From: a virus
DNA length: 20,216 bases
Virus record (IMG/VR): IMGVR_UViG_3300000101_000260
Location: 1 to 20,216 of that record
Direction: 5' to 3' (one strand)
The notes under the pieces were generated by a model. The model was not told where the DNA came from. It worked only from the letters and a program-made list of their open reading frames with translations, and ran no database searches. Below, in pieces: positions 170 to 20,216 of this stretch (positions within the stretch are counted from its first letter, which is position 1; the number at the start of each line of letters is the position of its first letter). The position numbers and the translations under genes are program-made.

Positions 170-350
170 AGTATTGTACATTTACACCCTCGTGTTCGTA
201 TGCTAGAAAATAGTAAAGTATGTCATCTTGTGTCGCTTTACTTTGTTGAAGCGCCAGAATAGCAGCATCAGCCGCAGGTTGTCCTCCGACTGATACTGTT
301 GAATGAATTGTGTCTACGCCTTCTGATGTTGTATATCCTATTTTTATCAT
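150..350 (-). CDS. Small orphan protein coupled to J (66 aa), function unknown
   Basis: The ATG at 350-348 overlaps the TAA stop of the J-like gene by one base (TAATG), a classic re-initiation arrangement, and a GGAG lies 11 nt upstream. The 66-aa product begins MIKIGYTTSEGVDTIHSTVS, has an Ala-rich middle (about residues 26-34) and ends with an aromatic, acidic tail (YYFLAYEHEG..., ending LWLDPL). No signal peptide or membrane segment is evident. I do not recognise the family. Its place as the last gene of the tail operon, directly behind the receptor-binding protein, makes a tail-fibre accessory or chaperone role possible, but that is position-based only. Confidence 0.65.
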   Translation of the reverse strand: MIKIGYTTSEGVDTIHSTVSVGGQPAADAAILALQQSKATQDDILYYFLAYEHEGVNVQYLWLDPL

Positions 351-6300: not shown

Positions 6301-7501
6301 CCTCAGCTTGGTAGGATTCTCCGTTATCGATATTAACATTTCTTAATTGATCATAGGAAAATTCCAATGATACATTGCTGACCTGGCTTACCTGCTCTCC
6401 AGTAAGTCCGAAACCTGCCGCAGAAGTACCTCTAAATATAGGTGCTGCTGTGGCCGGAGTATTCGGTGTTTTAGACGAGGAGTCTACAAATTCCAAAAGG
6501 CCATTACTAAATGAAGATCCCGCGCCTACATTTATCGAACTGCCCGCGCCGCTAAATATAGGTGCCTGGTACTGGTATCCGTGTCTAAAAATACTTATGA
6601 CATCGCTACTCGTTAGATACGCATTAGAAAACTCTGAAGGAGTTAAGGTAGTGCCATTGTTGTCCCCCAAGTCTCCATCTATTCCGCTTGGATCAACTGT
6701 TATGCTGTCAGTCTTAAAGTCTGCAATCTCCCAATCATAAGTACCATTAGGAATAATGCTGTTATTGGTGTTTTGAATGGTAATATAATCGCTGTCAATA
6801 TTAGCAGTATTGGCAATAATTACACTTCTATCGGCTCGTAGCGTTGCGGAAAACGCGCTACTTTCAGTGAAAGCCGCAACGTGTTCAGCATTGTTAAAAT
6901 ATATGTTTGGTTCGAAAACAGCAGAGCCTGTATTAGTAACTGTTACAGATCCCCAGATCTCGATGCCTGTTGCAGGGTTTTCAAGTGTGGCATAAAAATT
7001 TCTTTCTCCGTCAGAAGGAGTAACATCTAGCCTATCAAGATTCGAGGTAAATTCGTTGCCTGATGAAGTAATACTGATACCCGGCAGCTCGCCTTCCACA
7101 GAGGGAGCAACTAGAGCAGGCTGAACACTTACAGTTAAGGTAGCAACTCCAATAATTCTCAGAGGCTTATTCATAGTGTACATTGCCCCTCCATTAGTCA
7201 TAAGCTCTACTCTTCTTGGATTAGAAGAAAAAGTACCTGAAGGGAAGGTGGCCGTACTGCCGTTAATGGTCACTTGACCTACGTCAGAGTTAGCTTCAGA
7301 AGTTACCGAATTTACTTCGCGACTTACTATAGAATCCCCGTCAAGATAGACGCTAGATCTACCGTCTACAAGGCCTTCGATAGGCCCTTCAGATATAAGA
7401 TCCGTAGCGTCTATTCGTGTTATTGTACTTTCATAGTAGAAAGTAGCATCATATTTATTCTTTTCATTTTCCGCTATCTGCGAATCTCTAGTTGTTGACA
7501 T
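350..7501 (-). CDS. J: Giant J-like tail tip / host-specificity protein (2383 aa)
   Basis: This is the central tail hub and host-recognition protein. The start (MSTTRDSQIAENEKN) is followed at residues 36-43 by ISEGPIEG, the hallmark opening of lambda J. From about residue 516 to about 790 it tracks lambda J closely: YHCRGRLVKIPNNY, YSGLWNGSF, DNPAWVFYDILTNDRYG, YCDELVPDGKGGTEPR, AFGCTSEGQA and VPGDIVSI. Added segments are an extra region at about 110-400, a LamG-like beta sandwich at about 830-975, an FN3-like domain at about 1137-1230, beta modules at about 1367-1420 and 1635-1690, about 20 decapeptide repeats at about 1925-2137, and a C-terminal domain (2138-2383) likely to contact the receptor. 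It is about twice the length of lambda J (about 1130 aa). The start is supported by AGGAG nine nt upstream. Confidence 0.95.
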   Translation of the reverse strand: MSTTRDSQIAENEKNKYDATFYYESTITRIDATDLISEGPIEGLVDGRSSVYLDGDSIVSREVNSVTSEANSDVGQVTINGSTATFPSGTFSSNPRRVELMTNGGAMYTMNKPLRIIGVATLTVSVQPALVAPSVEGELPGISITSSGNEFTSNLDRLDVTPSDGERNFYATLENPATGIEIWGSVTVTNTGSAVFEPNIYFNNAEHVAAFTESSAFSATLRADRSVIIANTANIDSDYITIQNTNNSIIPNGTYDWEIADFKTDSITVDPSGIDGDLGDNNGTTLTPSEFSNAYLTSSDVISIFRHGYQYQAPIFSGAGSSINVGAGSSFSNGLLEFVDSSSKTPNTPATAAPIFRGTSAAGFGLTGEQVSQVSNVSLEFSYDQLRNVNIDNGESYQAEAKHDIKLTIYRGTASDTFKIFSVDHGKQGINTVVRSKGVSRPIRFEQEINLEPYKPFTDFAITVERKSRHDGLATSGTSGHEVFAKAAITSIQSTSESHLSYPLTAYAHTSFTSKEYPRLPVRTYHCRGRLVKIPNNYTPRHLTANDTAVYSGLWNGSFAVKPVYTDNPAWVFYDILTNDRYGLGGFIQEVDIDKFQLYRVAKYCDELVPDGKGGTEPRFRANIYLTKAVESYKVLKDMATIFRGMLYWLDGKVQTIVDEAKDPVYTFSNSNVSKGLFSYQTSGEKTRANQIVVSWNNPESNYDLEPLLLEDSENIAKTGKLIKQEAMAFGCTSEGQALRYAKWKLWTSVNQTEVVSFSTSLDSGFLVPGDIVSIQDSGRQGLGLGGRISSDPAKGRAVTGSISRVDNGATISPGTFVPASGDNRAKTAIISGTANLPATFTRDECLFEIGGTGVGTYLGVINSGGAYNLVFRAGDGASTITGNTTGGVFRLIPISEIPEFNGQSHKITIEYVLPDGIARLYIGNRKVLDLQTSDKSNFDSGLWAGNNDGGWGKGAAATAGEHSTNFWTGQTTSDLSFYSDPDFDILPLDRSVVLKETNTYSVTVLMPQAQNAGIEGEERPIKTETRNIDMSALTFSGGVSEVDVLPLTAEFSQRPAEQSVFVINEVDANGQLVAGTAKQYKLLSIEEGSQGVHTLTGVEHYNEKFAAIENEEVYTVVRSEEAYPDLASRSGTSVEEPTNLSLVPGDLGGTYSLHWEPPVNSDGSLFKDVDSYKITCNKAVFPFGEDDAVGTFVREKVVSSGTQEYVFARPFLEGDIVFSITTITSTGKTSYPANVSLTVPPHNSNSLLGRGYASKYGLAVGGKANTTVDIATSNGTTQTELNFQADQIVVQPAQSSKAESIPRPTGVDISLSGLAISTTPYDVMYDADADQLVPIVRDTYEQQISGMPLDTWRDATLTNAFTANLTGTISKASNSHVITGSGTSFTTELQLGDTLKASNNMYYRVATIKNDTHLTVDRNPKAGWTNKTFAREKLRLNFAQDFIVGQLLKTGTNQAVFTTNMLLVNGELLLAGNFNLGGGSVIGGVPVSDVVTRRNPEGQATISPRVNMTNNTAVQYAVGESGTHIFKNEEPILVDVAAGTKGTLTLAAGDVMKSNKAVSFVRKGRALNAFSSTGTKFCNFSVGTNNHYDFYAPYGSGNIRYFNSTSPSPTKLNGSPLIEWNGNFEKNKTLSSGSLIAGVKYKILTTGNTDFTTIGAADSNPNTEFTATGAGPLVSTEGEVNGTVQSLEGFEVAEIGESTVLRKSFTGLSGTSKVYVWILSDTPLLVACQSGVNDNVQVRPASTRVLTYDNAIAPVYFDPTKTEVLDIRTSNDWSIASSNTRLIGSFDNGDGTGGDGVSALPWNMCGDVYMLPHRISNYQVASVEPTIITVSYWDGTDSKWIKHATHDLMSASALNLVGLKIGSNDFEYDSANALGGGSNLWKFTGTGTFALRTNDEFSKEYFADGYSEKLRKDDIVQVGKIIAEQISTNAITAAAVADNAITVNAILDGAVANAKIAVDAIQGNVIAAGAIVEAKLGADAVTAAKIADNAVTTDQIANDAVTTATMADNAVTNAIIATDAVNADSLVANAVTAVAIQAGSIEASKIAADAVTADSIAANAITSAKITANAITASKIATNTITANEIAANAVTASEIAANAVTANEIAANAVTASEIQAGAITADAIAVNSIAVNKLTGDVNEEYSTQFRAVQTGDHTLASTLGTYSTIQAFSIPAPEGVAKAVKISGTLSTRAFNGTGSTQSTEYSIHLEMKAKGTAATNLGTAAADAVGAGLSAETVYISGNKLKEFGSAGSVSAAANGSSGQGDVIGVYYDAPTNRTYIQYLDASLSFDSGDTIYYSAENFTSANGYVQIQSGFDDATDKHSIIALPNNETFYDKTYLSASLPKTSTATEFRLRVRNRKVLPSNLNVTFPTGAFKLEHIV
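1081..1740 (-). repeat. About 20 tandem 30-bp (decapeptide) repeats inside J
   Basis: The DNA has a strict 30-bp period across this interval with no indel, and the best-preserved block is 1111-1710 (20 units). Each unit encodes ten residues close to A-N-A-(I/V)-T-A-x-x-I-A, for example TANEIAANAVTASEIAANAV. Units at 1171-1260 differ from each other at only a few positions, while those nearer 1700 are much more diverged. The regular small/hydrophobic pattern suggests an extended trimeric beta or fibre shaft between the tip body and the C-terminal domain. That structural reading is inference. Confidence 0.9.
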
Positions 7502-7516: not shown

Positions 7517-8161
7517 TTAACTTCCAAAACCATGACCCATGTTCCAAGGTCCGTATATCGGGGTAACGTATTCCCCTGTGTTTGCACCTAAATTGCTTGT
7601 TCTGAAGCCAATAGGTCTACCTGGTACTCTTAATTCTCCGTACAGCAAAGGTACGGGATCTCCTTCAATTACATTCTGTTGAGAGCCATCGAACAGATAT
7701 GTAGGAGGCTGCTCTTTATCTACAGCCGGGTCGGGGGCCATTATCATCGCAAGGCTCGCGCTTGCTAGACTTACTCCAATCCCGAGTAGGGCCATACCTA
7801 CTTGCGCGTTTGTAAAGTTTCCAAAAGCCAGAAATTGAGGGCTCGCCAGTCCAATACCTATAAGGGCTACACCCAGAATCAAAGATGTAAACTTACTTTT
7901 GGAGCCTCTTGGCACAGGATGAAACGAGATGTCTCCTAACTCTTCAGACTCAAGTATCTCTTTCTCTGACTTTTCCTTTTTATCAATCTCTACAACAAAG
8001 TCCAAGCCTTTAGAATCCGACTCTGCTAAGTATTTTCTAAAAGCACCGTCAAAGTTAGCGTCTAAAAGCTTGATTGCGTCTGATACGTTCCTAACATCGG
8101 CCTCTAGCTCAGGTGTGAAGAGCTGGCCTAGTTCTCCTTCTAAATATATTTTACGTTTCAT
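7517..8161 (-). CDS. I: I-like tail tip assembly protein (214 aa)
   Basis: Lambda gpI acts in assembly of the tail tip together with J, K and L. This protein shows the same architecture. An N-terminal beta-grasp-like region (about 1-83) ends at ISFHPVPRGSKS and parallels the VIHIVPRV segment of lambda I. A very hydrophobic Gly/Ala-rich stretch follows (about 91-142, probably two helical hairpins), ending MIMAPDP where lambda has MLAP. The C-terminal signature is NVIEGDPVPLLYGELRV (163-179), matching VAQGNVLPVLYGEMRV of lambda. Length is near the usual 200-225 aa. The ATG overlaps the end of the K-like gene by 11 bp, and J begins 15 bp downstream. The Gly-rich C-terminus (NMGHGFGS) is typical of the family. 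Confidence 0.9.
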   Translation of the reverse strand: MKRKIYLEGELGQLFTPELEADVRNVSDAIKLLDANFDGAFRKYLAESDSKGLDFVVEIDKKEKSEKEILESEELGDISFHPVPRGSKSKFTSLILGVALIGIGLASPQFLAFGNFTNAQVGMALLGIGVSLASASLAMIMAPDPAVDKEQPPTYLFDGSQQNVIEGDPVPLLYGELRVPGRPIGFRTSNLGANTGEYVTPIYGPWNMGHGFGS

Positions 8162-8858
8162 ATCTATAAATTTCCGTTAAGTGCTTTGTCCAGAAAGGGT
8201 ATAGATTCTCTCTGCATGAAAGCCTGTCTGCGCAATGATGAAAAAATACATCATTACCTAAATAAACCCCACAATGATTAGGTACTTTTGAGTCAATTGA
8301 AAAGATAAGCAGGTCATGTTTCTCTGCGCTGTCTACTTTCTTAAAACCCCAACTATTGATATAATCTTCTGTGAAGTAGTTCAACCCTTTCTCCCACCAT
8401 AAGTTTTCATATGCGTCTCGGGCAGGGAGTTGAATGCCTTGAGTACTGTACCAGTCTTTAGAAGCCTCGAAACAGTCCTGCACTCCGAAAATATACTCTC
8501 TACCTATAAGAGACACTGTATTGTGTTTTGGCTGTTGTACGTGGAGTTCTAGGTCTGGATAGCTAAATATATAGTAAGGTATACAAAGCGCATCGCAGTT
8601 GTTAATATCAGAATCAGAAGGCTCACAACTAGCATCTGGATGACTATGTACAATACCTACTATCTCTGCTGTTCTTTTTATTTCTAAATATTGCTTGGAG
8701 TCCATAATAAAATCATCATTATTATTCGCCAAATTTGTACAAGGAAACCATTTCAGCCTCCCTTTAAATATAGCAAAAACTCCACAACCTTCTCTTGGGT
8801 ACTCAGATTCAAAATGTTCTGCTAATTCTTCTAGTATCTCTTTACTTAAATTTAACAC
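8151..8858 (-). CDS. K: K-like tail tip peptidase, JAMM + NlpC/P60 (235 aa, GTG start)
   Basis: This is a two-domain tail protein like lambda gpK. With the GTG at 8858 as residue 1, the JAMM/MPN zinc-peptidase domain is at about 1-115: Glu23 in PREGCGVF, then H71-S-H73 with PSDSD ending at Asp84, the HxH...D metal site. The NlpC/P60 domain is at about 120-235, with candidate catalytic Cys129 (QDC) and His196 in NHCGVYLG, then the FFHH...RLSCRE stretch shared with lambda K. All key residues are present, so both domains may be active, in cell-wall cleavage or in processing during assembly. The frame is open further up (TTG/ATG at 8924/8921), but the GTG has a GGAGG upstream, fits the family N-terminus, and reduces the overlap with L to 17 bp. 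Confidence 0.9.
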   Translation of the reverse strand: MLNLSKEILEELAEHFESEYPREGCGVFAIFKGRLKWFPCTNLANNNDDFIMDSKQYLEIKRTAEIVGIVHSHPDASCEPSDSDINNCDALCIPYYIFSYPDLELHVQQPKHNTVSLIGREYIFGVQDCFEASKDWYSTQGIQLPARDAYENLWWEKGLNYFTEDYINSWGFKKVDSAEKHDLLIFSIDSKVPNHCGVYLGNDVFFHHCADRLSCRENLYPFWTKHLTEIYRYET

Positions 8859-9993
8859 TGGCGGGGAACCCTCCGAAAGGTATAGACCCTTGTGTTGTTG
8901 ATTTTCTTGAGCCAGGTACATCAATACCTGTACTCGAGGAGGAGAGACCTATTCTTGTACCTTGAAATCTACACCTACACCCTGTAAGCGTTTTACTACA
9001 AAGGTCTATACGAGACCACAGGGTTAAAGAAGGGTCGGGAGTATTTCCAGCAGATAAACTAACATTCGCTTGCCATATTTTATTGTCGTACCTTACTAAA
9101 GCGTTTGCTGAATAAGTAGCAGAGGCAGAGTAGTCGCTCCAGCCTCTAACCTCCTGCCAAAAAGCCTGCGAACCTGAGGGCGTTGTTTGGTTTGAAGCGG
9201 TCTCACTTCTCCAAAATTTAGAGATGTGTGAGACGAGCACATCTCGAGCATACGTACCCGAAGAATACGCACTAGAGTTGGCGTTGAGCACTGTGGCGGA
9301 GACAAGAGGTCTATTTTGTGTATCAAAGAAAGCATTGTACTCAACAACAGGATTAGAGGTGTTGCCCAACACAGTAACAGAGTGATTGCTGTCTGCGGCC
9401 CAGTTACATGCACCACGAGACCTAGAAACTCCTTGATATTCCCAAGAGCAGTATTTTCCTATTATAGATCTAGAAGGTATAGTTACACCCTCTAAATCAA
9501 AGGGACTACTTAGCTCAAAAGATACAAGCGAGCTATCCTCCTCTGCTACTCTGTCTATTATATAGCGCTTAACAGGAAACTCTATTGGATCTGAAGCATC
9601 TACACCGCCTACTAAATATTTTGCAAAAGTTGTTCTCAGAGTTATAGTCTTACCTATCAGAGCCTGGAAGTTAAATCCCGCACTTTGAAGAGTTGTTCGC
9701 AGTAGAGGAAGAACATTCGCCATCGTAAGAGTAGGCCTAGTAGCAGAGCCTTCGGACTTGTGCGAAACACCCTCTAATAGCATCGGCAAAGCTACATAAG
9801 TATTGGCGGCGCTAGAAGTATTGTTCGTAGGGTTGCCTTCAGGGTGAAACTGAAGATCTGCTATTAGCTCATTTTTTCCTGGGTGAAAAAATAAAGTAGA
9901 GGTGTCGCTAAGTTTGAGCTCAAATAACTCTACTATAGCATTATCAATAGCTAGTGTCTGGAGATCACTAGAGATTATATTATTGGTACTCAT
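8842..9993 (-). CDS. L: L-like tail tip protein with inserted carbohydrate-binding module (383 aa)
   Basis: Lambda gpL is a tail tip protein whose C-terminal part coordinates a [4Fe-4S] cluster through four conserved cysteines. Matching motifs here are ATRPTLTMAN (84-93), SFELSSPFDLEGVTIPSR (158-175), YCSWEYQG (181-188) and LCSKTLTGCRCRF near 331-343, followed by IPFGGFPA (371-378). Candidate cluster ligands are Cys182, Cys196, Cys332 and Cys339; Cys341 is extra. The stretch between the second and third cysteine is about 135 residues, far longer than in lambda. Near its end it holds a CBM5/12-like motif (about 279-329; WSDYSASATYSANALVRYD, then KIWQAN and a closing LW). This explains the length of 383 aa against about 232 in lambda. 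The start overlaps the M-like stop as ATGA. Confidence 0.9.
   Translation of the reverse strand: MSTNNIISSDLQTLAIDNAIVELFELKLSDTSTLFFHPGKNELIADLQFHPEGNPTNNTSSAANTYVALPMLLEGVSHKSEGSATRPTLTMANVLPLLRTTLQSAGFNFQALIGKTITLRTTFAKYLVGGVDASDPIEFPVKRYIIDRVAEEDSSLVSFELSSPFDLEGVTIPSRSIIGKYCSWEYQGVSRSRGACNWAADSNHSVTVLGNTSNPVVEYNAFFDTQNRPLVSATVLNANSSAYSSGTYARDVLVSHISKFWRSETASNQTTPSGSQAFWQEVRGWSDYSASATYSANALVRYDNKIWQANVSLSAGNTPDPSLTLWSRIDLCSKTLTGCRCRFQGTRIGLSSSSTGIDVPGSRKSTTQGSIPFGGFPASVKFK
8870..8874 (-). promoter_or_regulatory. Shine-Dalgarno site that decides the K start
   Basis: GGAGG on the minus strand lies 11 nt before the GTG at 8858. The alternative ATG at 8921 has only a weak AGG nearby and would make K and L overlap by about 80 bp. 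Confidence 0.6.
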
Positions 9994-10352
9994 GGTTCAT
10001 ATACTCGTTTTAAAGTTGCACTAAGACTATAAAAATCATCATAGCTGTATGTTTTTGAATATTCGGATACTATTACTTTTACAGTAACCTCTCCTCCTGT
10101 GTTCGGTGTGGTAAAGTCAAAAGGTGTAACACCTTTTAATAAGTCAAAAAAGCCGGAAATTGCATCAATCTCCGCTTTAGTTCTATTCACGAAACTGACG
10201 GTAAAGGATTCATTAGAGCTATTTATGCCGTCCTGAATTCTTTGCTCATACCCGTCCCCAAAGGAGACTTTACGCACTCGCGGAACTGCTTGTAGCACCA
10301 TTGATTTATCGGGTATTCTTTGAACCCCTGACACTGTAAAGCCTATAGCCAT
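9990..10352 (-). CDS. M: M-like minor tail protein (120 aa)
   Basis: This is a small tail tip component homologous to lambda gpM. The recognisable core is AVPRVRKVSFGDGYEQR (about 22-38), matching SVPSVRKVRFGDGYSQR of lambda M. A beta-rich body follows, with GVTPFDFTTP (about 74-83) in the place where lambda has the WKSFLWTPP segment. Length is close to the usual 105-120 aa. It begins 2 bp after the tape measure stop, with GGAG seven nt before the ATG and inside the tape measure 3' end. Its stop overlaps the L-like start (ATGA), so the three genes are translationally coupled. In lambda the M protein is added late in tip assembly with L; the same role is expected here. Confidence 0.93.
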   Translation of the reverse strand: MAIGFTVSGVQRIPDKSMVLQAVPRVRKVSFGDGYEQRIQDGINSSNESFTVSFVNRTKAEIDAISGFFDLLKGVTPFDFTTPNTGGEVTVKVIVSEYSKTYSYDDFYSLSATLKRVYEP

Positions 10353-10354
10353 TA

Positions 10355-13300
10355 TTATACTCCATAAGGGCTAAGCATTCCGCCCGATCTTTGTTGTTTT
10401 GATAGTTCTTCTTGTATAGCCTTTGATATAGCTCTACCAAAATTCTCTACGTTTGAATCGTCTCCAGATGCAGAAGAGGAGGCGCTTCCATTTTTATCGA
10501 CTGAAACATTAACAGTTACATTATTAGTTTGCTGGCCTCCTGACTTCATTTCGACAGGAATTGAGTTGCCATTCGGCAGAGGTACTACTGCTTCTGTTCC
10601 GTGCAACACTGCAGGGTATCCCGAAGTGGAACCTCTTGCTACACCGCCGGTTGAGTAACCTGTAGGAGGTGTAGCGATACCTCCGTTTCTGTAGCCATAT
10701 TTTGCTGCTATATTTGCTCCGGCATTAGGTGCCCCTGAATAGACTGTCTTGCCTGCGGAGTTTACTGCAGAATCACCGCCTCCACCGAAAGTGGATAAAG
10801 CTGCCTGAATTATTCTTGCTGCCATCATCTCCGCAACCATTCTTGCAAGGTGTCCTAGTATGGCCTTTGCCATATCTGCGAATGCTTCTTTTGCAGTTTT
10901 AGTTCCGTCTATTATACCTGTAAATGCGTCAGCCAGGCTATTCTCCAAAGCATCAAATAGGGCCACTTTTCTCTCGTAGGCATCGTTTAGGGTTTGCTGG
11001 GCTTCTAGCTCGGCATAGAGAGAGTCCTTCTGCTGTGTAGTAAGTATAATGTTCTTTTCTTTTAAAGCATTAAGGCGCGTATTAAATTCAGTGACTACAG
11101 GGTTCGCGCTAAGTCCCTCGAACCTCAGTCGTGCCGCTTCTGTATCTGCTTGCACATTTAACAACGCTGCTTGACCTCTTTGCCCAAACAGGGTAATTTC
11201 CTGACTTAAAAGTGCTACATTTTGTTTTGATATTTCTAGTTTTCTCTCTGCTGCGGCGAGTTGCTCGGGGCTGGCGGCGAGATTCCCCTTTCTTCCAGAA
11301 AGATTAGTCTCCTCAAGTTGAGCATCTCGTTGTTTTTGTTGGGCCGAGCGCAACTGCTCTTGTAAGGTTATTCTCTGCTGGTTAGACTGCTCTACACCTC
11401 TTGCTATACCGAAAGACCCCGTACCTCCTGCCTCAATAAATTTACTTTTCTGTTTTGCTCGTAATAGGGACAGTTCAAGATTTAGTCTCTTCTTTGAATC
11501 CTTACCTAACTCTTTCTGAAGCTTGAGGTTTTCGGCTAGAATGTTATTTTTAATTGTTTCAAGTTTAACCTCTGAATCAATAATAGAAAGCTTGCCATCC
11601 ATCTGATTTTTTTGCTCAGTGAGTATCGATAAGCTTTCTTTCTCGTCATCGGTTAAAGTCTGTGTCTTATCTGCCTGCTTTGCAAGAAGCACTCCCTGGG
11701 CCGCTAATACAACTTCTTTTTTTGCTTCCAGAGTATTTCGTTTTGTAGCTATGAGGGTGTTTTGCGCCTCTAGATTTGTTATCTTTTCTGACAACGTAAC
11801 CCCTCTAGTTTTATCGGCTGCAAATGTCTTTTCTGCAGAGGCGCGCTTGCCAAGTAGTTCATTGATTCTCGTTTGTCGCTTCTCAAGAGCCACAATACCA
11901 TTAGAGGCGTTATCTACTTGCGAATTAAACTTCTCCTGAGAATCAGAGGCTTCCTTAATTAGCTTATCAAGGTTGTTTAATTCCTTCAGTTTCGTTCTAT
12001 CAAATATCTTACTCCCCTCGTCTTCTTTGCCATCAAGAGTAGGAATATCAGAGAATACCAATGAGGTGTTGTCAGCCACAAATTGCTTTCTTTTCTGGGT
12101 TAGCTTCGCCAACTCTTCGCCGGAGGCTTCGGATGCAATTTTGCTGTCTGTAACCATCGTAGTTAAAGAAGCCTTATACTCTGAACCGAAAGGTTTCTTC
12201 ATGCTGCCTACAAGAGCGGTGAAGGCCTTATTAACACCTTGAATAGTCTCTGGCATCTGCGACAAAGCTCTTTTCTGCTCTAGTAAATGGTTACTTAGAT
12301 TACGGGTCTGCTGTGCAGCTTTGTCGGATACTTCTGTTCCGCCTCTTATTGACTTTCCTAAAACTCTGAAACGATTGTCTAATACTATAAGCTGGTTAAC
12401 TGCGTCTATTACCTGCGGTCGTAGCTTTTTGAACATATCTGAATTAGGGTCGAGCTTTGATATAAAGTTAATATCTTCGATTACCTTATTTACGTCCATG
12501 CTCTGTACACTACTTGCAGTTGCCTGTATACGCTCATCAGGGGTAAGATTCATCTGTGAAAAATCATTTAACACTTTAATGGTTCTCCCCACCTCCTCCG
12601 TTAGGGTAGAGTATCTCTCACTTATTTCTTTAACTTGCTTATTTAACTCCTTTGTGGCTTCTGAGACAGGGTTAAAATGTCTGTAGACCATTTTAAATGC
12701 GTCAAAAGCCATTACCGCAATACCAAAATAGAAAAATGCCTTACTTAAGGCCGCACCAAGCTTAGCTGCACCAGTGGCCATAGCAGCAAAACCTCTTTGT
12801 ACAGTTTTTGAGAAACTTTTAAAAGTAAGGCTCGTTAGCTTTATTCTATTTTGTATATTTTTAAGAGAGAAAGTAAACTTGCGCTCACCTTCTTTAATAA
12901 TACCAGCCTGTAGTTGATATCCAGTTCTAAGATCTGCCACTTGCTGTACTGTCATGTCTTTAAACATACCCGTACGCTTTTTAACATTGCCCTCTGTCTG
13001 GGCCTCGAAGTGAGTAAGTGCCTTATCTGCTGCGGTTTGTGCTTTTTTACTGTCAGAGCCGCCTGTTAGGAACTCTGTCGCACCTTGGCCGCTCTTAGAG
13101 GGTTTGAAGTCTTTTAGTATATCCTGGGCGCCACCTTGGGCTCCGAGCATTGTCTGTTGTTGTGCTTGGTTTAGTTTGGCATATTCAAGGCGGGTTTGCT
13201 GGAGCTCAGCACGAATAACCTGCTGGCTAGTTTTTGCCGCAGTCATTGCAGCTTTTGAGCTCTCCTCCCAGGCGCCCATGCTTGGAAGTATTTGTTTTAA

Positions 13301-14194
13301 GATACCTGCCGCAAATAGCCCGAGTACAGAGATTAGAGATAAGATATTTTCGCTCAAGAATGTAGCAATACCTGCCATGGGTCCTGCAATTGCATTCTGT
13401 ATACTCTTTGAGACATCATCAAACGCTTTAGCAAACTGGTTAAGAGCAGCGGCATTGGGATCCATTAACTTTTCCATGGCCCCAAACTTTCTCTCTGCTT
13501 GTTCGAGAACTTCATTTGCTACTGCCTGACTTCTCTCGAAAGCATTTAAATCTCCGGCGGCTTTACCAATTTGTAGTCCATATTTCTCAGTGGCCGCTTC
13601 CAGTCTAAGGATAATACCAAGTTCGTCTAGCAGTTCTGGCTCAGCTTTTGTTGTACCACGGATAAGTCGATCGAAGGAATCTCCAAGATCTCTACCTAGG
13701 GCTACCGAGGCTGTTTTAGCTGCAGCACCTAGTCGAGTGAGTTGCTCGGGAGACAGGCCAGAGGCAGTACCAATAGCGGCAGCTTTTGCTGCATCTGCAT
13801 ATTTTAACTGACCATCTGTTGCGGCAATTACAGAGTTTGTAATAGTCTTATATGCAACACCGGTTACAGCACCTAAAGCTTTTTGACCTTCAAGAAGGTT
13901 ACGAAAGTCAGAAGCACCTTTTAGAAACTGAAAGGCAGCAGATAAAGCAAATGCAGAAGCAGCAAGAGTGGCGTAGACACCTACTAAGCCTCCCATACCT
14001 TGTCCCATTTTTGAGAAGTTCTTAGTTCCGTTAGCGGAAGCCTGGGCAGCTCCTTTGAGGTTTCGATCAGCAGTACGTGCGCCCTTACCAAGGTCGTCCA
14101 TACCTTGGGCAGCTTTTTTAGACTCTAAGCCCAACTTTTTGGTAGTGCCTTTATCGTCTACGTTTACATCTATTTCAACTTTATTCTTTGCCAT
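10355..14194 (-). CDS. H: Tape measure protein (1279 aa)
   Basis: It sets tail length, scaffolds tube assembly and is ejected ahead of the DNA. The N-terminus (MAKNKVEIDVNVDDKGT) opens a long helical protein. Hydrophobic segments at about 70-92, 269-303 and 470-500 would span membrane during ejection. Long Lys/Glu/Gln-rich coiled coil fills about 700-1100. The C-terminus has the ENSLADAFTGIIDGTKTAKE motif and amphipathic HLARMVAEMMAARIIQAAL typical of lambda-type tape measures, then a Gly-rich tail containing VLHGTEAVVPLPNG. No lytic transglycosylase or peptidase motif is evident. At about 1.5 angstrom per residue it predicts a tail of roughly 190 nm, longer than lambda. Its ATG overlaps the chaperone stop (TAATG) and no good Shine-Dalgarno is seen, so translation probably depends on coupling. 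Confidence 0.95.
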   Translation of the reverse strand: MAKNKVEIDVNVDDKGTTKKLGLESKKAAQGMDDLGKGARTADRNLKGAAQASANGTKNFSKMGQGMGGLVGVYATLAASAFALSAAFQFLKGASDFRNLLEGQKALGAVTGVAYKTITNSVIAATDGQLKYADAAKAAAIGTASGLSPEQLTRLGAAAKTASVALGRDLGDSFDRLIRGTTKAEPELLDELGIILRLEAATEKYGLQIGKAAGDLNAFERSQAVANEVLEQAERKFGAMEKLMDPNAAALNQFAKAFDDVSKSIQNAIAGPMAGIATFLSENILSLISVLGLFAAGILKQILPSMGAWEESSKAAMTAAKTSQQVIRAELQQTRLEYAKLNQAQQQTMLGAQGGAQDILKDFKPSKSGQGATEFLTGGSDSKKAQTAADKALTHFEAQTEGNVKKRTGMFKDMTVQQVADLRTGYQLQAGIIKEGERKFTFSLKNIQNRIKLTSLTFKSFSKTVQRGFAAMATGAAKLGAALSKAFFYFGIAVMAFDAFKMVYRHFNPVSEATKELNKQVKEISERYSTLTEEVGRTIKVLNDFSQMNLTPDERIQATASSVQSMDVNKVIEDINFISKLDPNSDMFKKLRPQVIDAVNQLIVLDNRFRVLGKSIRGGTEVSDKAAQQTRNLSNHLLEQKRALSQMPETIQGVNKAFTALVGSMKKPFGSEYKASLTTMVTDSKIASEASGEELAKLTQKRKQFVADNTSLVFSDIPTLDGKEDEGSKIFDRTKLKELNNLDKLIKEASDSQEKFNSQVDNASNGIVALEKRQTRINELLGKRASAEKTFAADKTRGVTLSEKITNLEAQNTLIATKRNTLEAKKEVVLAAQGVLLAKQADKTQTLTDDEKESLSILTEQKNQMDGKLSIIDSEVKLETIKNNILAENLKLQKELGKDSKKRLNLELSLLRAKQKSKFIEAGGTGSFGIARGVEQSNQQRITLQEQLRSAQQKQRDAQLEETNLSGRKGNLAASPEQLAAAERKLEISKQNVALLSQEITLFGQRGQAALLNVQADTEAARLRFEGLSANPVVTEFNTRLNALKEKNIILTTQQKDSLYAELEAQQTLNDAYERKVALFDALENSLADAFTGIIDGTKTAKEAFADMAKAILGHLARMVAEMMAARIIQAALSTFGGGGDSAVNSAGKTVYSGAPNAGANIAAKYGYRNGGIATPPTGYSTGGVARGSTSGYPAVLHGTEAVVPLPNGNSIPVEMKSGGQQTNNVTVNVSVDKNGSASSSASGDDSNVENFGRAISKAIQEELSKQQRSGGMLSPYGV

Positions 14195-14625
14195 TAGCCA
14201 TTCACGTTATGGGTGAAATTCTTTCCACCGCCCGCAGATTTCTTTCTTTCCTCTGCCTTTCGTTTCTGTTCTGCTTGTTCTGCTTTGTGGACTACCAAAA
14301 TACTCTCGTATACTTTGAGAATATAAAGCATTGTTCTAGGTTCTTCTATTTCGTAAAGCTTGAAAAGATATTCTATATTGCCCCATTTTTTTCCTAAGAA
14401 GCTTCCGGACATTCCGTCCCAGTTATCTTCAAGTAGTCCAAATATAAAAAATGCCACTTGGACCACCACCGGAAAATCGGAGGGGTCGAGCGGCATCTTT
14501 TGGGGGTCAGGCTCTTCTCCTAACTGTTCACAGATACGTAAGTACTTATCAAGATCAATAGGCTGATTTTGAGACTTTACATATCTTTCAAGTAGGGACC
14601 TTAGTTCCCCTACTTGTTCCCAGTA
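14194..14625 (-). CDS. Tail assembly chaperone, frameshift extension (T-like domain)
   Basis: This is the second half of a G-GT type chaperone. The frame is open from the slippery site at 14631-14625 down to the TAA at 14196-14194 and has no convincing independent start. After a -1 slip at Phe136 of the upstream gene it continues YWEQVGELRSLLERYV..., then EPDPQKMPLDPSDFP, DNWDGMSGSFLGKKWG and a Lys/Glu-rich helical end, adding 143 residues for a fused product of about 279 aa. The DGMSG...LGKxW motif is one I know from phage tail chaperone C-terminal parts. The fused form is expected to bind the tape measure while the G part recruits tail tube subunits. The first ATG in this frame (14496) would give a 100-aa product that lacks the first part of the domain. 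Confidence 0.88.
   Translation of the reverse strand, partial: YWEQVGELRSLLERYVKSQNQPIDLDKYLRICEQLGEEPDPQKMPLDPSDFPVVVQVAFFIFGLLEDNWDGMSGSFLGKKWGNIEYLFKLYEIEEPRTMLYILKVYESILVVHKAEQAEQKRKAEERKKSAGGGKNFTHNVNG
14589..14616 (-). promoter_or_regulatory. Frameshift-stimulating stem-loop
   Basis: CAAGTAGGG and CCCTACTTG form a perfect 9-bp stem around a 10-nt loop. The stem starts 8 nt after the slippery heptamer, the usual distance for stimulating -1 frameshifting. The zero-frame stop TAG (14612-14610) lies within its first arm. Confidence 0.85.
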
Positions 14626-15032
14626 AAATTTTCAAGATCGCCTACTGTCTCTGTAACCCAGGTATCAAAGTCGCCTGAGTTTTTCATCAGAAGCTCTGCG
14701 TTGTCCTGAGTGTATGCAAGTTCATCATCTGCATCCAGTGCCGAGATATCTACCAAAAGAAGCTCTTCTAGGTAACGATACTTTAGGCCTGTCCAGCCTT
14801 TGATTACTGCCTTACAGTACTCTATCAAGAATTTATCTTCGTCAAGAATTTCTTCTGGTTGACGAGTTTTCTTACTGAACTTAGTGCTAACACACTTCTT
14901 ACGAAGCTTTACTAGCTCTTCTCTGCCTAAGTAACATAGGCTTACTTCCATTCCTGTGTAACCGGGGAAGTCAATTGATACTGTCTTACTTGGTGTCATT
15001 AGAGTGGCTAATGAAATAGGGGTGTCGCTCAT
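14610..15032 (-). CDS. Tail assembly chaperone, G-like (140 aa)
   Basis: This is the unshifted form of the tail chaperone, made in excess over the fused form. The start MSDTPISLATLMTPSKTVSI leads into a small beta region, YLGREELVKLRKKCV, and then a helical, acidic second half (EEILDEDKFLIEYCKAVIKGWTG split across about 80-102, ending DLENFTGNK). An AAGGA lies 7 nt before the ATG. It sits between the major tail proteins and the tape measure, exactly where lambda G and HK97 gp13 lie, and it ends at TAG just after a slippery site. The family is poorly conserved in sequence, so the call rests on position, size and the frameshift signal, which together are strong. Confidence 0.88.
   Translation of the reverse strand: MSDTPISLATLMTPSKTVSIDFPGYTGMEVSLCYLGREELVKLRKKCVSTKFSKKTRQPEEILDEDKFLIEYCKAVIKGWTGLKYRYLEELLLVDISALDADDELAYTQDNAELLMKNSGDFDTWVTETVGDLENFTGNK
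14625..14631 (-). promoter_or_regulatory. -1 ribosomal slippery site A AAT TTT
   Basis: In the zero frame the codons are GAA AAT TTT ACT, so the heptamer AAATTTT fits X-XXY-YYZ. A -1 slip re-reads T at 14625 and enters the open T frame (TAC TGG GAA ...). Only four sense codons separate it from the zero-frame stop. Confidence 0.88.
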
Positions 15033-15059
15033 GTTTTAGTCCTTATTATTTGATTGTGG

Positions 15060-15090
15060 AAACAAAACAGGGATGAAAAATCATCCCTGT
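15060..15090 (-). terminator. Intrinsic terminator / attenuator after the major tail proteins
   Basis: On the minus strand, ACAGGGATGA and TCATCCCTGT form a perfect 10-bp stem with a TTTT loop, followed at once by TTTGTTT. It lies 66 bp after the stop of the second major tail protein and 28 bp before the chaperone start. It would let abundant tail tube message accumulate while only read-through reaches the chaperone, tape measure and tip genes. In the plus direction the U-tract is poor. Confidence 0.85.
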
Positions 15091-15108
15091 CTCGATTTTC
15101 TATTACAT

Positions 15109-15137
15109 AGTATAGTTCAAATAACCTATGAAGTCAA
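15109..15137 (-). promoter_or_regulatory. Sigma-70-like promoter directly before the terminator
   Basis: TTGACT (15137-15132), a 17-bp spacer and TATACT (15114-15109) give one mismatch per box. Predicted start is about 15102, only about 12 nt before the terminator stem. It is either a source of a roughly 40-nt terminated RNA or of a transcript controlled by read-through. AT-rich gaps can mimic promoters, so this is moderately supported. Confidence 0.5.
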
Positions 15138-15155
15138 GAACTATTTTTTGTAACG

Positions 15156-16514
15156 TTATACTGTCTGATATTGCACTTTTGCCTCATAATCCGTTGTTGT
15201 AGTATTAGGATCAATATCCTTTGGCAGCGCATGGAACGTTGTCTCTACACTAATTGCATCATCAATAGAGTGTGTTGGAATCTCTAAATGACAGCGAGGC
15301 ATTGTTACAAGCAGTCGAGGACCTGCGGCAGCCCCTCCGATGGTAAACACCATGTTGAAACTATTTACCGTCTTGCTTGTTGATTCGATCAAAGCCTTAA
15401 ACAAGTCAGCAGACCCTCCAGTTGCATCATTCAAGTAACATGTAATACTACCGCCAATTACACGAGTACCGGCTATATGGCCCAGAGGAATGTTTACTTT
15501 GCCTAAGTCATTGGGGGTTAAGAAAGTAATATTATTCGCAAAAGTCAAGCTACCGCCAGTAAGAGTAAGATTATATACACCATTTGAATTAGCTCCTGGG
15601 AAAGTAGCGAAACTATCTGCATCTGCGGTTACTGCAAGAGTGGTTAAACGATTACGGATAAAGTTATCTGTATCAAGAGTTTTTTCTGTAATAGTTGTGG
15701 TCGGGACAGTAGTTCCTTGATCAGAAATCAGACTTGCAAAACCTGACCAATTGATAGTTGCAATACCATCAACCTCAAAATCAACAGTTGCTTCATTTAC
15801 AACAGCACCGTCACACTTATAGACTTGCTCTGCACCTGCTTTACCCATCACAAAGTATAGCTCAAAGGTACCAAGCTCTGCAACCTCTGAGGCATTCCAG
15901 TTGATTGTGCAATTGCTTGTGTTATTGACTAGACCGCCAGACCACGCGCCGTCTGATATAAAGGCGAGATTGCCACTTACCTGCGAGCTTGTGGCGTTAG
16001 TAAGTGTAATCGTATTGGTACCGGTATTGATGCTATCAATTTCCGTATTTGCAGCGATGCCGGTGCCAGAGACAGGATCCCCTATTGATAGGTGGGTTAC
16101 ATTATTTAGTGTAACAGTCGTGGCTCCGCTAGCTCCGCCTGAAGCAAAGGTCTTCGTTATTACTGCGGAAGCTCTCCAGGCATTGTTAGCAGCAAGGTTT
16201 GCCCAGAGTGCCTCTTCAACGGCATGAACATCATTATTGGCGCCGGCGATCAGCCAACCCTTTGTTGTGTCGGGCACACCTTTAACAGGTCGAACATAAG
16301 TGCTAAAGCTCCACTCGGCAGGTGCTAGAGAGTCATTAAACATTTGACGAGATCTGCGACTCTTACCAGTAGTTGCATTTAGTGCTTCGTTCAGAGTAAT
16401 CTCGGAACTATTCGTTGCCTGTGAGAAGGAGAAGCCATCAAGAACAGGAATTTCCCACACATTAGCACCCTGCTTTAAAAGTACGCGGGTGTCTCTACTA
16501 AAAAACATTGACAT
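15156..16514 (-). CDS. Major tail protein paralog 2 (452 aa)
   Basis: Probable tail tube subunit. It is clearly paralogous to the neighbouring 425-aa protein. Shared blocks include FSRDTRV (4-11), VLDGFSFSQATN (24-35), RQMFNDS-APAEWSFSTY (56-73), DGIATINWSGF (249-259), the TLTGG...T-T region (317-332), HIAGTR..GG..TCYL (346-361), RCHLEIPTHSIDDAIS (407-422) and FHALP (427-431). A 63-residue insert at about 124-186, with SGATTVTL and SIGDPVSGTGI, resembles a small beta module that I recall from many phage structural proteins. It starts 4 bp after the stop of paralog 1, with purine-rich AGGAAAAGGA as ribosome site inside the upstream gene. The annotation as tube protein rests on position and size and on its tandem partner. 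Confidence 0.82.
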   Translation of the reverse strand: MSMFFSRDTRVLLKQGANVWEIPVLDGFSFSQATNSSEITLNEALNATTGKSRRSRQMFNDSLAPAEWSFSTYVRPVKGVPDTTKGWLIAGANNDVHAVEEALWANLAANNAWRASAVITKTFASGGASGATTVTLNNVTHLSIGDPVSGTGIAANTEIDSINTGTNTITLTNATSSQVSGNLAFISDGAWSGGLVNNTSNCTINWNASEVAELGTFELYFVMGKAGAEQVYKCDGAVVNEATVDFEVDGIATINWSGFASLISDQGTTVPTTTITEKTLDTDNFIRNRLTTLAVTADADSFATFPGANSNGVYNLTLTGGSLTFANNITFLTPNDLGKVNIPLGHIAGTRVIGGSITCYLNDATGGSADLFKALIESTSKTVNSFNMVFTIGGAAAGPRLLVTMPRCHLEIPTHSIDDAISVETTFHALPKDIDPNTTTTDYEAKVQYQTV

Positions 16515-16518
16515 AATA

Positions 16519-17796
16519 TTATCCTTTTCCTACGTAGCTTACAACAAGCTCGTCTGTGCCGTCGAATCCGCTCGGCAGTGCGTGAAAGTTAGTCTCTAAA
16601 GAGATTACATCTTCGATAGAGTGTTGAGGTATTTCGATGTGACAGCGGTTCATTCGGAAGTTTACAGAAGGACCATTCGCAGCAATATTGCCGCCAATAC
16701 TAAAGTCAAGATCTACATCAGTGGTAACGTTAGTAATTCCTTCAATAGAATCTTCAAATAAGTCAGCGCTGCTGGTTGTGAGATCAGAATCAAGATAGCA
16801 AGTAAAGCTGCCCGATATTGAACGAGTTCCTGTTACATGTCCGATTGGCTGATTTACTACACCGAGAGTTTCTGGAGTAATATAAGTAACATTGTTACTA
16901 ATTGTAATATTACCACCAGTAAGTGTTAATGTGTATGCGTTTGGAGATCCGCTAACAATGTCTGAACTTGTAATATCAAGAGAGGAAAGCTTATTTTTGA
17001 TATAGTTATCAGTTGAGGAAATACCAGCAACGAATGGTGTTGTTACACTACCAAAATCAACTGTTTTTGCAAAGACGATATTCCCTGGTGTTGCGTGATT
17101 AGTATCAAGCCATACAGAGCCAATAGGATTGGTTCCAGCACCTTCACCACTATCTGTGGGACTAGCATCTTGACTATATGCTTTTACTTCACTAATGAGA
17201 GAGCCAAAGCCTGACCAGTTCAGAGTTGCAATACCGTCAATATCAAAGTCCATAGCAACTTCGTTTACTACACACTTTTCAATCTTATAAGCGGTAAGAG
17301 TATCACTTGCAACTGTGCGTCGATTTCCGCCCATAATAAAGTAGATATCAGCAGTACCAAGAGTACTAGTGTTTGAAGTAGAGAAGTTAATCTCCTGTAG
17401 ATTGCCAACCTGTTTAACATACTGATTTACGCTGCCGGAACCAGCAGCAAGGTCTGCTCGCTTGTTAAAAGCTTTATTGGTGTCATCCCAATAAGCCTTG
17501 CCTGCTATCAAACCCCAAAGAACTTCTTCTACTGAACGATCTTTTGAAGATGCAAAGTATGGGCGAGTATATGTAGAAAAGGACCATTCTGCCGGAGCAT
17601 ATGAATCATTGAACATCTGACGTCCTCGATTACTAACACCCGCAGTGCTTTCCATTTCTGAGAGGCTTACCTCTGTTGCGTTTGTAGCTTGAGAAAACGA
17701 AAATCCATCAAGCACAGGGACTTCCCAAATGAAGTCTTGCCCTGTTAGCTTGATAAAAACTCTAGTATCTCTGCTAAAATATAAATTATCTGCCAT
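16519..17796 (-). CDS. Major tail protein paralog 1 (425 aa)
   Basis: Probable tail tube subunit in the lambda V position, directly after the tail terminator. It aligns end to end with the 452-aa neighbour, with conserved blocks LYFSRDTRVF (5-14), VLDGFSFSQATNATEVSLSE (28-47), RQMFNDSYAPAEWSFSTYTR (59-78), DIDGIATLNWSGFGSLIS (185-202), HVTGTRSISGSFTCYLDS (320-337) and HIEIPQHSIEDVISLETNFH (386-405). It lacks the beta insert of paralog 2 but has its own extra segment at about 205-255 (GSVWLDTNHATPG). A strong AGGAG lies 6 nt before the ATG, after a 61-bp gap from the upstream gene, consistent with high expression. Which paralog dominates the tube cannot be told from the sequence. Confidence 0.85.
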   Translation of the reverse strand: MADNLYFSRDTRVFIKLTGQDFIWEVPVLDGFSFSQATNATEVSLSEMESTAGVSNRGRQMFNDSYAPAEWSFSTYTRPYFASSKDRSVEEVLWGLIAGKAYWDDTNKAFNKRADLAAGSGSVNQYVKQVGNLQEINFSTSNTSTLGTADIYFIMGGNRRTVASDTLTAYKIEKCVVNEVAMDFDIDGIATLNWSGFGSLISEVKAYSQDASPTDSGEGAGTNPIGSVWLDTNHATPGNIVFAKTVDFGSVTTPFVAGISSTDNYIKNKLSSLDITSSDIVSGSPNAYTLTLTGGNITISNNVTYITPETLGVVNQPIGHVTGTRSISGSFTCYLDSDLTTSSADLFEDSIEGITNVTTDVDLDFSIGGNIAANGPSVNFRMNRCHIEIPQHSIEDVISLETNFHALPSGFDGTDELVVSYVGKG

Positions 17797-17857
17797 AGTA
17801 TTCTCCTATGTTTCTTGAAAAGGCTAGGACGTGAACATTTGCTCGTGCCTGCATTTT

Positions 17858-18310
17858 CTAATATCGAACCTCGATCAGCATCTCTCCGACGCCTAAAGGT
17901 TCTAGTACACCTTCATCAGTATCAATACTAATGATTGTGATTTGCTGAGTAGACTGAGCGGCTCCGGTTCTATCAGTATAAGATAAACTTGAGTTATCTT
18001 CGAGAACAGTTTCCACATCGTCTAATAAGTTATCTAACGCCTCTACGGCATCTTCATCATGTACATAACATCTAACAGTTACGGACAAGAATCTATCTTT
18101 GTAGCCAGCGCCCTGATACGCTCTTGTCTCCGAGCCTGCATTTAAATGAACAGCAGGAAACTCCTCTACTTCGTCCCAGAACTTAAGCCTGGGAGAGACA
18201 TTATGGTTTAGATCAGATAAAAAGCCTCCAGAACCATCAATATCCTTTAGCTTCTCCGCTATAGCCTTAACTATAGCGCTTCGTCTGGTTGTGTAATCTC
18301 GTGTTGCCAC
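17858..18310 (-). CDS. Tail terminator protein, U-like (150 aa, GTG start)
   Basis: It caps the tail tube and provides the interface to the head. A basic helical start (TTRRSAIVKAIAEKLKDID) is followed by FPAVHLNAGSETRAYQG (52-68), KDRFLSVTVRCYV (71-83), an acidic helix with LLDDVETVLEDN, and a final DTDEGVLEPLGVGEMLIEVR. I recognise this pattern from tail terminator/minor tail U families. The GTG start overlaps the upstream TAG (TAGTG) and has AGGAGA six nt before it, so the start is well supported. It sits just before the major tail proteins, as U does relative to V in lambda. Confidence 0.82.
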   Translation of the reverse strand: MATRDYTTRRSAIVKAIAEKLKDIDGSGGFLSDLNHNVSPRLKFWDEVEEFPAVHLNAGSETRAYQGAGYKDRFLSVTVRCYVHDEDAVEALDNLLDDVETVLEDNSSLSYTDRTGAAQSTQQITIISIDTDEGVLEPLGVGEMLIEVRY

Positions 18311-19671
18311 TATGTTCTCCTAGTGTAGAATCTTCCGACTGCGAACTCTGCTGCAATCTCTCGAATGGATTTATCAATGAGACTTCTTGGGTCTCTTTGA
18401 CCGTTTGCCCAAGGCGGGGCGCCTGCTCCGTCCTCGAATACCTGATAAGGATCTCTCTGATAGGTATAGCCTATACTTGGAAACCCTTTATTGGTTGCCA
18501 TAATATCAGTTGCTCGTACACTATCTGCAAAGCGCCCTGTTTGGTTTTGTAGGCTAGGGCTGTTCATATTCTTTCTTACAGTTTCCGGAAGCTCTTTGTT
18601 AATTGATGCAAGTAAAGCTAGTGGTGACCCCGCAACTCCTTTTTTAGCAGAAGAAGTTAGGTTTGTTGTATCATTATCTTTATACTGCTTTGTTGACCCT
18701 TTCGGCTTACTACTTTTAAGAGTGCCTTTACCTTTTGATCTTTTTACTTTTGTAGACTCTGTTTTAACTTTAGCATGGGAGCTTTTTCGTAGCGGCCCAG
18801 CAAAGTCTTCAATTATAATCTTTCTTCGCTTCTGTACAGAGGAGTCCGAACCTTCTATATAGGCCCATTCTTCGCCAATTTGTTCAGCTGCTTTCTTTAG
18901 GGCTTTATTTAGTTCGAGTACCTCATTCTTTTCTTTAGAAGTAGAGGCTCGGTTAATTGCCTTACTCTCCATTTTTACACGAATAACGTCAAGAGGAGGG
19001 CCTTTATCGTCTTTTCCTATCTCGAAGGTTATTACTCCCGCAAGCTCGTCTATAACTTTCTTTGCTAAGGGGCTGAGGGTTTTATTTCCGTCTAACTTCC
19101 AAAGGGCTTGCTGTACTTTTGCTGCTCGTTGAAGGGAGACAGAGCTATCATTTTCGTGCCCTAAATCAAGGAAACCTTTTCTACTTGAGATTAGTTCTGC
19201 TTGACTTCCTTCTTTTCTGCCTCTGTTTAGATCTTTTAGCTTTTTATTTAGTGCCTTGATTAGAGGTCTTTGTGCAACCTGTTTCATTCTTTTAAAAGTG
19301 TTAAACACGTTTGCAGTTCTGCCGGGCTTTGATGCCAGTACGAACGTAAAGTTGAGGGAACTCCCTTGCAGCTCTGACGTTCTAGTCCATTTCTTGCCTG
19401 TTTTATCAAACTCTTTTGGGTGAAACTGTTTATAGAGAGTTCTTACCATTTTTCGCACTTCTTTGCGAATAATACCTCTAGTACCTTGAGACAACGTGCT
19501 TACGCCCTCTCGGGCTTTCATTTCAGTCTCTACTTGTAAGATAATGTCTTCGGCATCAAGTGTAAACTCGTGAACCTCATAGTTACTAATAAGTGTTCTG
19601 TATGCTTCTGAGCTTTTCTTAATGTCCTCTTCTATATCCTTCAGGACGCTTAGTAAGGATACTTTGGACAT
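18310..19671 (-). CDS. Neck / tail-completion protein candidate (453 aa)
   Basis: The gene lies between the head-tail connector and the tail terminator, the place of lambda Z or HK97 gp10. The first 280 residues are mainly helical and charged (SKVSLLSVLKDIEEDIKKSS at the start, REGVSTLSQGTRGIIRKEVR near 54-73). Residues about 293-335 are a Lys/Ser-rich linker (KVKRSKGKGTLKSSKPKG). The last 105 residues look like a compact folded domain: LLASINKELPETVRKNM, TGRFADSVR, GFPSIGYTYQRDPYQVFEDG, RDPRSLIDKSIREIA and FYTRR. I have an impression of having seen this C-terminal type in phage neck regions, but I cannot name a family with certainty. The length is 2-3 times that of usual tail completion proteins. 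The ATG overlaps the upstream stop (TAATG). The functional call is mainly from position. Confidence 0.6.
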   Translation of the reverse strand: MSKVSLLSVLKDIEEDIKKSSEAYRTLISNYEVHEFTLDAEDIILQVETEMKAREGVSTLSQGTRGIIRKEVRKMVRTLYKQFHPKEFDKTGKKWTRTSELQGSSLNFTFVLASKPGRTANVFNTFKRMKQVAQRPLIKALNKKLKDLNRGRKEGSQAELISSRKGFLDLGHENDSSVSLQRAAKVQQALWKLDGNKTLSPLAKKVIDELAGVITFEIGKDDKGPPLDVIRVKMESKAINRASTSKEKNEVLELNKALKKAAEQIGEEWAYIEGSDSSVQKRRKIIIEDFAGPLRKSSHAKVKTESTKVKRSKGKGTLKSSKPKGSTKQYKDNDTTNLTSSAKKGVAGSPLALLASINKELPETVRKNMNSPSLQNQTGRFADSVRATDIMATNKGFPSIGYTYQRDPYQVFEDGAGAPPWANGQRDPRSLIDKSIREIAAEFAVGRFYTRRT

Positions 19672-20216
19672 TAGAAGTTCTTATAAAAATCCAGTATACG
19701 TTTGATATGATCGGGGAAGCCTACATTGCCAGACTGCCCAGAAGTACCTTGGTTCTGGATGCTTGCGCCTGACAAAGTCTGACGCTGTTTATGTTCGTCT
19801 TTGTGGTAGTACGAAATTAAGTCAATTACTGCTAACTTGAGGTCTGCTGGACAGGCTGAGTAGCCGCCTTTGTAAGTAACTTTAACAGCTCCTGGACCTT
19901 TTGCAAAGTTCTTGTATCCGTTCGATCCGTTACTGCGAAGAATCGAGTCAGTCTCAAAATCTACGTAGTAGTCTGAATCGTTTACAAGAGTAACATAAGA
20001 AGATGAGATAGACTCTCTTTCTTCTACAGAAACTACGGAGTTAAGAGGTACCTCGTCTACAGAGACGGTATAGTTATCAAAATCTATATTGAAAGTCTCA
20101 GTTTTATTACTAGCAAAAAAGTCTACAAAAGTATTATTGCAGTAAGTTTTTACTAATTGACTCACGGAAGTGACTAATTCTTCAAGACGAACATCATCAC
20201 CGAAACCAGTGATCTT
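19671..20216 (-). CDS. Head-tail connector, HK97 gp6-like (partial at right edge)
   Basis: The reading frame has no stop up to the window edge, so the gene starts beyond 20216. The first residues visible are KITGFGDDVRLEELVTSVSQ, followed by LVKTYCNNTFVDFF. This is the classic opening helix of gp6-like connector/adaptor proteins ('D-x-L-x-x-L-I-x-x-A-x-x-x-I-x-x-Y-C-N-R-x-F'). The body is beta-rich (VDEVPLNSVVSVEE; YYVDFETDSI; AVKVTYKGGYSACPADLKLA), then a helix SYYHKDEHKQRQT and a C-terminal IKRILDFYKNF. It would form a ring under the portal. A GTG at 20165 could be read as a start, but it has no Shine-Dalgarno and would remove the conserved first helix. The stop overlaps the next gene's ATG (TAATG). 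Confidence 0.85.
   Translation of the reverse strand, partial: KITGFGDDVRLEELVTSVSQLVKTYCNNTFVDFFASNKTETFNIDFDNYTVSVDEVPLNSVVSVEERESISSSYVTLVNDSDYYVDFETDSILRSNGSNGYKNFAKGPGAVKVTYKGGYSACPADLKLAVIDLISYYHKDEHKQRQTLSGASIQNQGTSGQSGNVGFPDHIKRILDFYKNF

Follow-up and report, generated by a model that had tools for sequence, protein, structure and literature searches.

A phage tail tube is generally regarded as a stack of many copies of a single protein. Two-form tubes and tip rings arising from tube duplication are already known: phage SPP1 reportedly makes a second form of its tube protein by translational frameshifting of one gene, and the Afp and PVC injection systems build two tube paralogs into each particle (Afp1/Afp5, Pvc1/Pvc5), which account for the bulk tube and the first ring. 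In phage T5, the tube protein pb6 consists of two fused copies of the tube domain and assembles into trimeric, pseudo-hexameric rings (PMC5717097; PMC10038345); expressed by itself, pb6 is able to assemble into tubes (PMC5717097). A second pb6-like protein, p140, structurally a duplicate resembling pb6, makes up one trimeric ring, which lies between pb6 and pb9 (PMC10038345). In phage LSH1, a T5-type double-domain tube, for which one gene (gp18) is described, is coupled to a distal tail protein of the lambda gpM type (PMC13243795).

The stretch of DNA analyzed here (the window), a virus record of 20,216 bases from an uncultured phage, is apparently a fragment, and all of its main genes lie on the minus strand. 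In order of transcription, the tube genes are preceded by genes for a head completion or head-tail adaptor protein (19671..20165; PF24163, E 4e-13; phrog_442), whose frame is open to the window edge and may extend beyond the called ORF (it was read as 181 aa, cut); a tail completion protein resembling the C-terminal part of T5 p143 (18310..19671; phrog_3725, E 1.5e-4; PF25747 below cut-off); and a T5 p142-like tail terminator (17858..18310; PF23818, E 9.4e-32; phrog_3907). The first and second tube genes, MTP1 (16519..17796) and MTP2 (15156..16514), are followed by two tail assembly chaperone genes (14610..15032; phrog_313, E 2e-10; and 14194..14496; phrog_3914, E 4.1e-10) and by the gene for a 1279-aa tape measure protein (10355..14194), assigned from its position, its length, and a weak Tape_meas_lam_C match below cut-off. 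The tip genes come last and encode lambda gpM-like (9990..10352; PF05939, E 1.1e-21; phrog_14) and gpL-like (8842..9993; PF05100, E 1.8e-24; phrog_18) tip proteins, a gpK-like tail protein with JAB and NlpC/P60 domains (8151..8924; PF14464, PF00877; phrog_30), a gpI-like tail assembly protein (7517..8161; phrog_32, E 2.3e-30), and a gpJ-like central tail fiber of 2383 aa (350..7501; PF13550; phrog_31, E 2.8e-118). MTP1 and MTP2 are flanked by T5-like connector genes and a lambda-like tip. The p143-like protein, 453 aa as against about 255 in the T5-like phage DT57C, matches its family at residues 307-437 only and so has a long N-terminal extension, and the p143 proteins of relatives are similarly long; within the gpL-like protein, residues 288-326 weakly resemble a carbohydrate-binding module (CBM_5_12, E 0.0017, below cut-off).

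MTP1 (425 aa) and MTP2 (452 aa) both match phrog_3575, a PHROG major tail protein family (E 4.5e-45 and 6e-52, respectively); MTP1 also matches Phage_tube_2 (E 4.1e-8), and the family profile matches pb6 chains with E 8.7e-63 over pb6 residues 3-355. AlphaFold models of MTP2 and MTP1 (mean pLDDT 80.2 and 78.5) align to the T5 tail tube, 9iny_A, over residues 3-452 of MTP2 (Z 36.9) and 4-425 of MTP1 (Z 35.5) as two fused tube domains, with no C-terminal Ig domain in MTP1. The P74-26 and SH-Ab15497 tubes trail at Z of about 24, and 9ioz_A, a chain of 293 residues from the T5 tip complex and presumably p140, to judge by its length, falls far below pb6 (Z 23.8 for MTP2, 23.4 for MTP1). The position of both genes between the tail terminator and tail assembly chaperone genes is also that of a pb6-type tube. 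By sequence and predicted fold, MTP1 and MTP2 are T5 pb6-type tube proteins. A lambda-type single-domain tube, the frame in which a sequence-only reading of this DNA had placed the pair, is ruled out by the phrog_3575 matches and the pb6-like double-domain models, and the heterohexamers envisaged in that reading are likewise mistaken, pb6-type proteins forming trimers in T5; by analogy, MTP1 and MTP2 would form trimeric rings. MTP2 was also considered as a p140 homologue and rejected, since it matches neither phrog_3889 at E 0.001 nor PF23779 at E 0.1.

The two ORFs are intact, begin with ATG, and lie 4 nt apart. Each is preceded by a Shine-Dalgarno-like site (AGGAG at 17803..17807 for MTP1 and AAGGA at 16522..16526, within the last MTP1 codons, for MTP2). 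Their products are about 47% identical end to end in a full alignment, and BLASTP aligns them over 283 C-terminal columns (41% identity, E 5e-62). The sequence-only reading was right to see tandem paralogous major tail proteins, but its "near-identical core blocks" overstate a resemblance that amounts to 67% (residues 3-78), 48%, and 49% identity in the separate segments. At the DNA level, only short patches are alike (72-78% identical), and the tandem order recurs on an independent contig, L013, whose MTP1 and MTP2 are 84% and 69% identical to the window copies; a recent duplication or an assembly repeat is ruled out by this short, weak similarity and by the pair on L013. A second tube form made by frameshifting is ruled out by the presence of two full-length ORFs, each with its own ATG and Shine-Dalgarno-like site. 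The 4-nt spacing was considered as a sign that the proteins are made in equal amounts and was dropped, the gap between the tube and p140 genes of DT57C also being 4 nt.

Each copy carries an insert that is missing from the other, as had been noticed from the sequence, and from the single-copy relatives aligned. In MTP1 the insert (residues 205-260; 17017..17184) falls, by sequence alignment to pb6, within the linker that joins the tube domains; the MTP1 proteins of L013 and a further contig, L014, share it. The MTP2 insert (residues 118-187; 15954..16163) follows, again by alignment, the first helix of domain 1 and corresponds to a module of about 65 aa that occurs once in the window MTP2, twice, at two sites, in the L013 MTP2, and not at all in the L014 MTP2. 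The insert regions are modeled at low confidence (pLDDT roughly 52-74) and probably face outward from the tube. Neither insert has a match among cultured phages or in Pfam.

How common such pairs are was addressed by scanning IMG/VR. Single-sequence scans returned no relatives for MTP1 and 4 for MTP2, whereas profile scans returned hundreds, with at least 583 loci of the pb6-type tube family; the 80 best from each scan were retained. Among 122 distinct intervals from tube to chaperone genes, a single tube gene is present in 115 and two in 7, the latter fraction not being an unbiased frequency because the sample was ranked by similarity to the queries. The tandem loci include two groups: the window, L013, and L014, which have a lambda tip and lack p140, and L062, L086, and L116, which have p140 and whose upstream tube copy is enlarged (677 aa in L062 and 626 aa in L086; the contig cuts it off in L116). 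In L062 (4866-6899) and L086 (5771-7651), the upstream copies carry large inserts that include a repeat-rich GYTSxPTVTVSGGG stretch near the N terminus. L115 stands apart with a divergent second tube copy of 346 aa, and L143 holds a partial tandem pair. No tandem pair was seen among 903 matching records of cultured phages, each of which matches at one place, or in the six relatives in a genome collection, all of them metagenome-assembled genomes of mixed assignment. Literature searches turned up no account of full-length T5-type tube genes in tandem, which is not proof that no such account exists.

In a maximum-likelihood tree, the MTP1 proteins of the window, L013, and L014 form one clade together with the tube protein of L015, a contig that ends within its tube gene (support 100/99), and the MTP2 proteins of the same three tandem loci form another (97/94). 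Because the copies each form their own clade, the tandem pair predates the split of these three contigs; the phylogeny called for in the sequence-only reading therefore places the duplication before the divergence of these relatives. The upstream copies of L062 and L086 form a clade of their own (100/100), far from those of MTP1 and MTP2, which makes at least two origins of tandem pairs probable. The best tree does not place MTP1 and MTP2 as sisters, but a joint clade is not rejected (p-AU 0.245), so that the second tube gene may have arisen by local duplication or may have been imported. Relative to L013, dN/dS is 0.17 for MTP1 and 0.29 for MTP2; neither copy is decaying and both are under purifying selection, which bears out the impression that both are intact and speaks against the relaxed selection that had been named as grounds for abandoning it. 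MTP2 evolves faster, as its lower amino acid identity to L013 indicates.

The tips that these tubes carry are of two kinds. Across about 120 IMG/VR loci, p140 (38 loci) and lambda-type gpM/gpL (55 loci) never occur together, and a pb9-like distal tail protein is found at 15 loci, all with p140; at the remaining loci the contig ends before reaching the tip genes, or these went unmatched. L046 (p140 and a pb9-like protein) and L018 (gpM, gpL, and gpK) are examples. The T5-type tube thus couples to two interchangeable tip modules, one T5-like and including p140, the other lambda-like and lacking it. The coupling of a T5-type tube to gpM is not new, having been described for LSH1 (PMC13243795), and our survey shows that it is widespread. 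The window gpJ-like fiber (350-7501) contains, at about residues 800-990, a domain of some 165 aa that was judged lectin-like only by eye. The domain recurs, with E about 1e-22 to 1e-29, as an insertion near the N terminus of long p140 proteins (495-773 aa) in relatives with the other tip (L029:8408-9895, L052:4572-6083, L077:7412-9733); this module seems to move between two unrelated tip proteins.

Whether MTP2 is a bulk subunit or forms a single ring, as p140 does, can be approached through codon bias, which we expressed as an amino-acid-matched z value relative to genes at the same locus; a simpler measure, how often two-fold codons end in C, separated the gene classes too weakly to be of use. 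Single-copy tube genes have a median z of 4.9 (5th percentile 1.56) and p140 genes a median of -0.95 (95th percentile 1.04), and the tube gene exceeds p140 in 38/38 loci. With z values of 3.1 (MTP1) and 2.5 (MTP2) in the window and 3.0 and 1.7 in L013, both copies look like tube genes in their codon bias, unlike p140. The sequence-only reading had offered a mixed tube, a special ring, and a decorated variant as options; together with the varying insert module, this codon usage favors, if indirectly, a mixed or decorated tube over a single ring. We posit that MTP1 and MTP2 are both bulk subunits of a mixed tube in which MTP2 is the variable, decorated form, a reading to which we would give about an even chance. 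The two proteins would be separately encoded pb6-type subunits, each fused double domain supplying one third of a pseudo-hexameric ring, as its predicted fold and the T5 trimer suggest. Both would be produced in bulk and incorporated over the length of the tail, so that a compositionally mixed tube would sit on a lambda-type tip. MTP1 would be the slower-evolving core copy and MTP2 the variable one, its modules inserted in domain 1 loops and presumably protruding from the tube and perhaps making contact with the cell surface, as has been proposed for Ig-like domains on the tubes of other siphophages. The probably separate origin of a tandem pair in L062, L086, and L116, there with an enlarged upstream copy, argues for a mixed tube. 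Against it stand the low codon bias of both copies in L014 (0.7 and 1.4), the location of MTP2 in the slot that the p140 gene occupies in T5 relatives, and the departure of MTP2 from family-conserved positions, which exceeds that of any single-copy tube and would fit a special contact too. The MTP1 insert weighs against MTP2 as the decorated copy, and decoration is not the sole role of MTP2, because the L014 protein lacks the module.

The main rival, which we consider possible but doubtful, is that MTP2 forms one special ring by the gpM ring at the tip (or MTP1 one by the terminator), as a newly evolved counterpart of p140. The precedent is T5 itself (PMC10038345), and in T5-like phages the gene that follows the main tube gene, as MTP2 does, is p140. 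MTP2 is also the faster-evolving copy. Out of 152 family-conserved positions, the MTP2 proteins depart at 18-19 (18 in the window) and the MTP1 proteins at 12-13, compared with a median of 5 and a maximum of 15 in single-copy tubes, and the changes include charge changes common to all three MTP2 copies. L115 has a divergent second tube copy with p140-like codon bias (z of -1.0). Evidence against a special ring comes from the lack of any p140 family match in MTP2 and its much closer structural match to pb6 than to the presumed p140 chain, from codon bias above the p140 range in the window and L013, and from the 53 single-copy relatives that have the same lambda-type tip and manage without a second tube protein. 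In L115, the gene for the divergent copy adjoins a true p140 gene (L115:7915-8955 and L115:9046-10128), and this copy may form a true special ring, perhaps a third kind of ring.

A comparison with L013 bears on how the pair has been kept. Synonymous divergence is 0.64 and 0.80 in MTP1 and MTP2 as against 0.15 in the terminator and 0.06 in the chaperone gene, rises to 0.54 in the second chaperone gene, and approaches saturation in the tape measure and tip genes; positions 14194-17796 are a mosaic with sharp edges at the tube cassette. These divergences are most simply explained by exchange of the tube cassette and the tip module among close relatives. Such exchange, and the separate placement of MTP1 and MTP2 in the best tree, would also be expected if the second gene were an interchangeable spare, either protein being able to build the tube and recombination swapping tube genes so continually that the pair persists. 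We think this improbable: both copies have been kept through the divergence of three contigs, each in its own clade, and each shows conserved deviations from the family that are peculiar to it, a pattern for which specialized roles account better than redundancy. That the pair answers a host defense sensing the tail tube protein, such as DSR2, which recognizes the phage tail tube protein (PMC10981675), is highly improbable even though the tube cassette is exchanged faster than neighboring genes, as a second tube protein would be an added target rather than a hidden one and no feature of the window points to a DSR2-type defense.

A mixed tube, if that is what MTP1 and MTP2 build, invites a further conjecture, rather unlikely in our view, that the tube is an obligate ordered co-polymer of two separately encoded pb6-type subunits, in mixed or alternating rings and with exchangeable display modules on one of them, a design that would have evolved repeatedly among uncultured phages whose tubes are of the T5 type. 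Two full-length tube genes that are both kept, one of them free to gain and lose modules, would offer a natural test of what tube decoration is for, and the tandem lineage would also test how ring composition is controlled and what the first steps are from a tube copy to a tip ring such as T5 p140.

Among known systems, the pb6 proteins of T5 and DT57C (phrog_3575; PDB 5NGJ, 7QG9, 9INY) resemble MTP1 and MTP2 in family, in predicted double-domain fold over the whole tube part, and in the gene slot after the terminator, but there is one such gene there and two in the window, and where pb6 has a C-terminal Ig-like domain the window proteins instead have inserts in domain 1 (MTP2) or the inter-domain linker (MTP1). 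T5 p140 (PF23779, phrog_3889) is, like MTP2, a tube-fold protein encoded directly after the main tube gene and is thought to derive from a pb6 duplication; it is about 300 aa long, only 9% identical to pb6, and confined to one ring, whereas MTP2 is about 47% identical to MTP1, falls outside the p140 families, and in the window has tube-like codon bias. LSH1 shares with the window a T5-type tube on a gpM-like tip and differs in having one tube gene and its decoration at a different place. The Afp and PVC particles are contractile and built from single-domain hexamers, unrelated to the pb6-type proteins at the family level. SPP1, with gp17.1 and gp17.1*, parallels the window in having two forms of tube subunit, one with an extra domain, whereas the window devotes two full genes to them.
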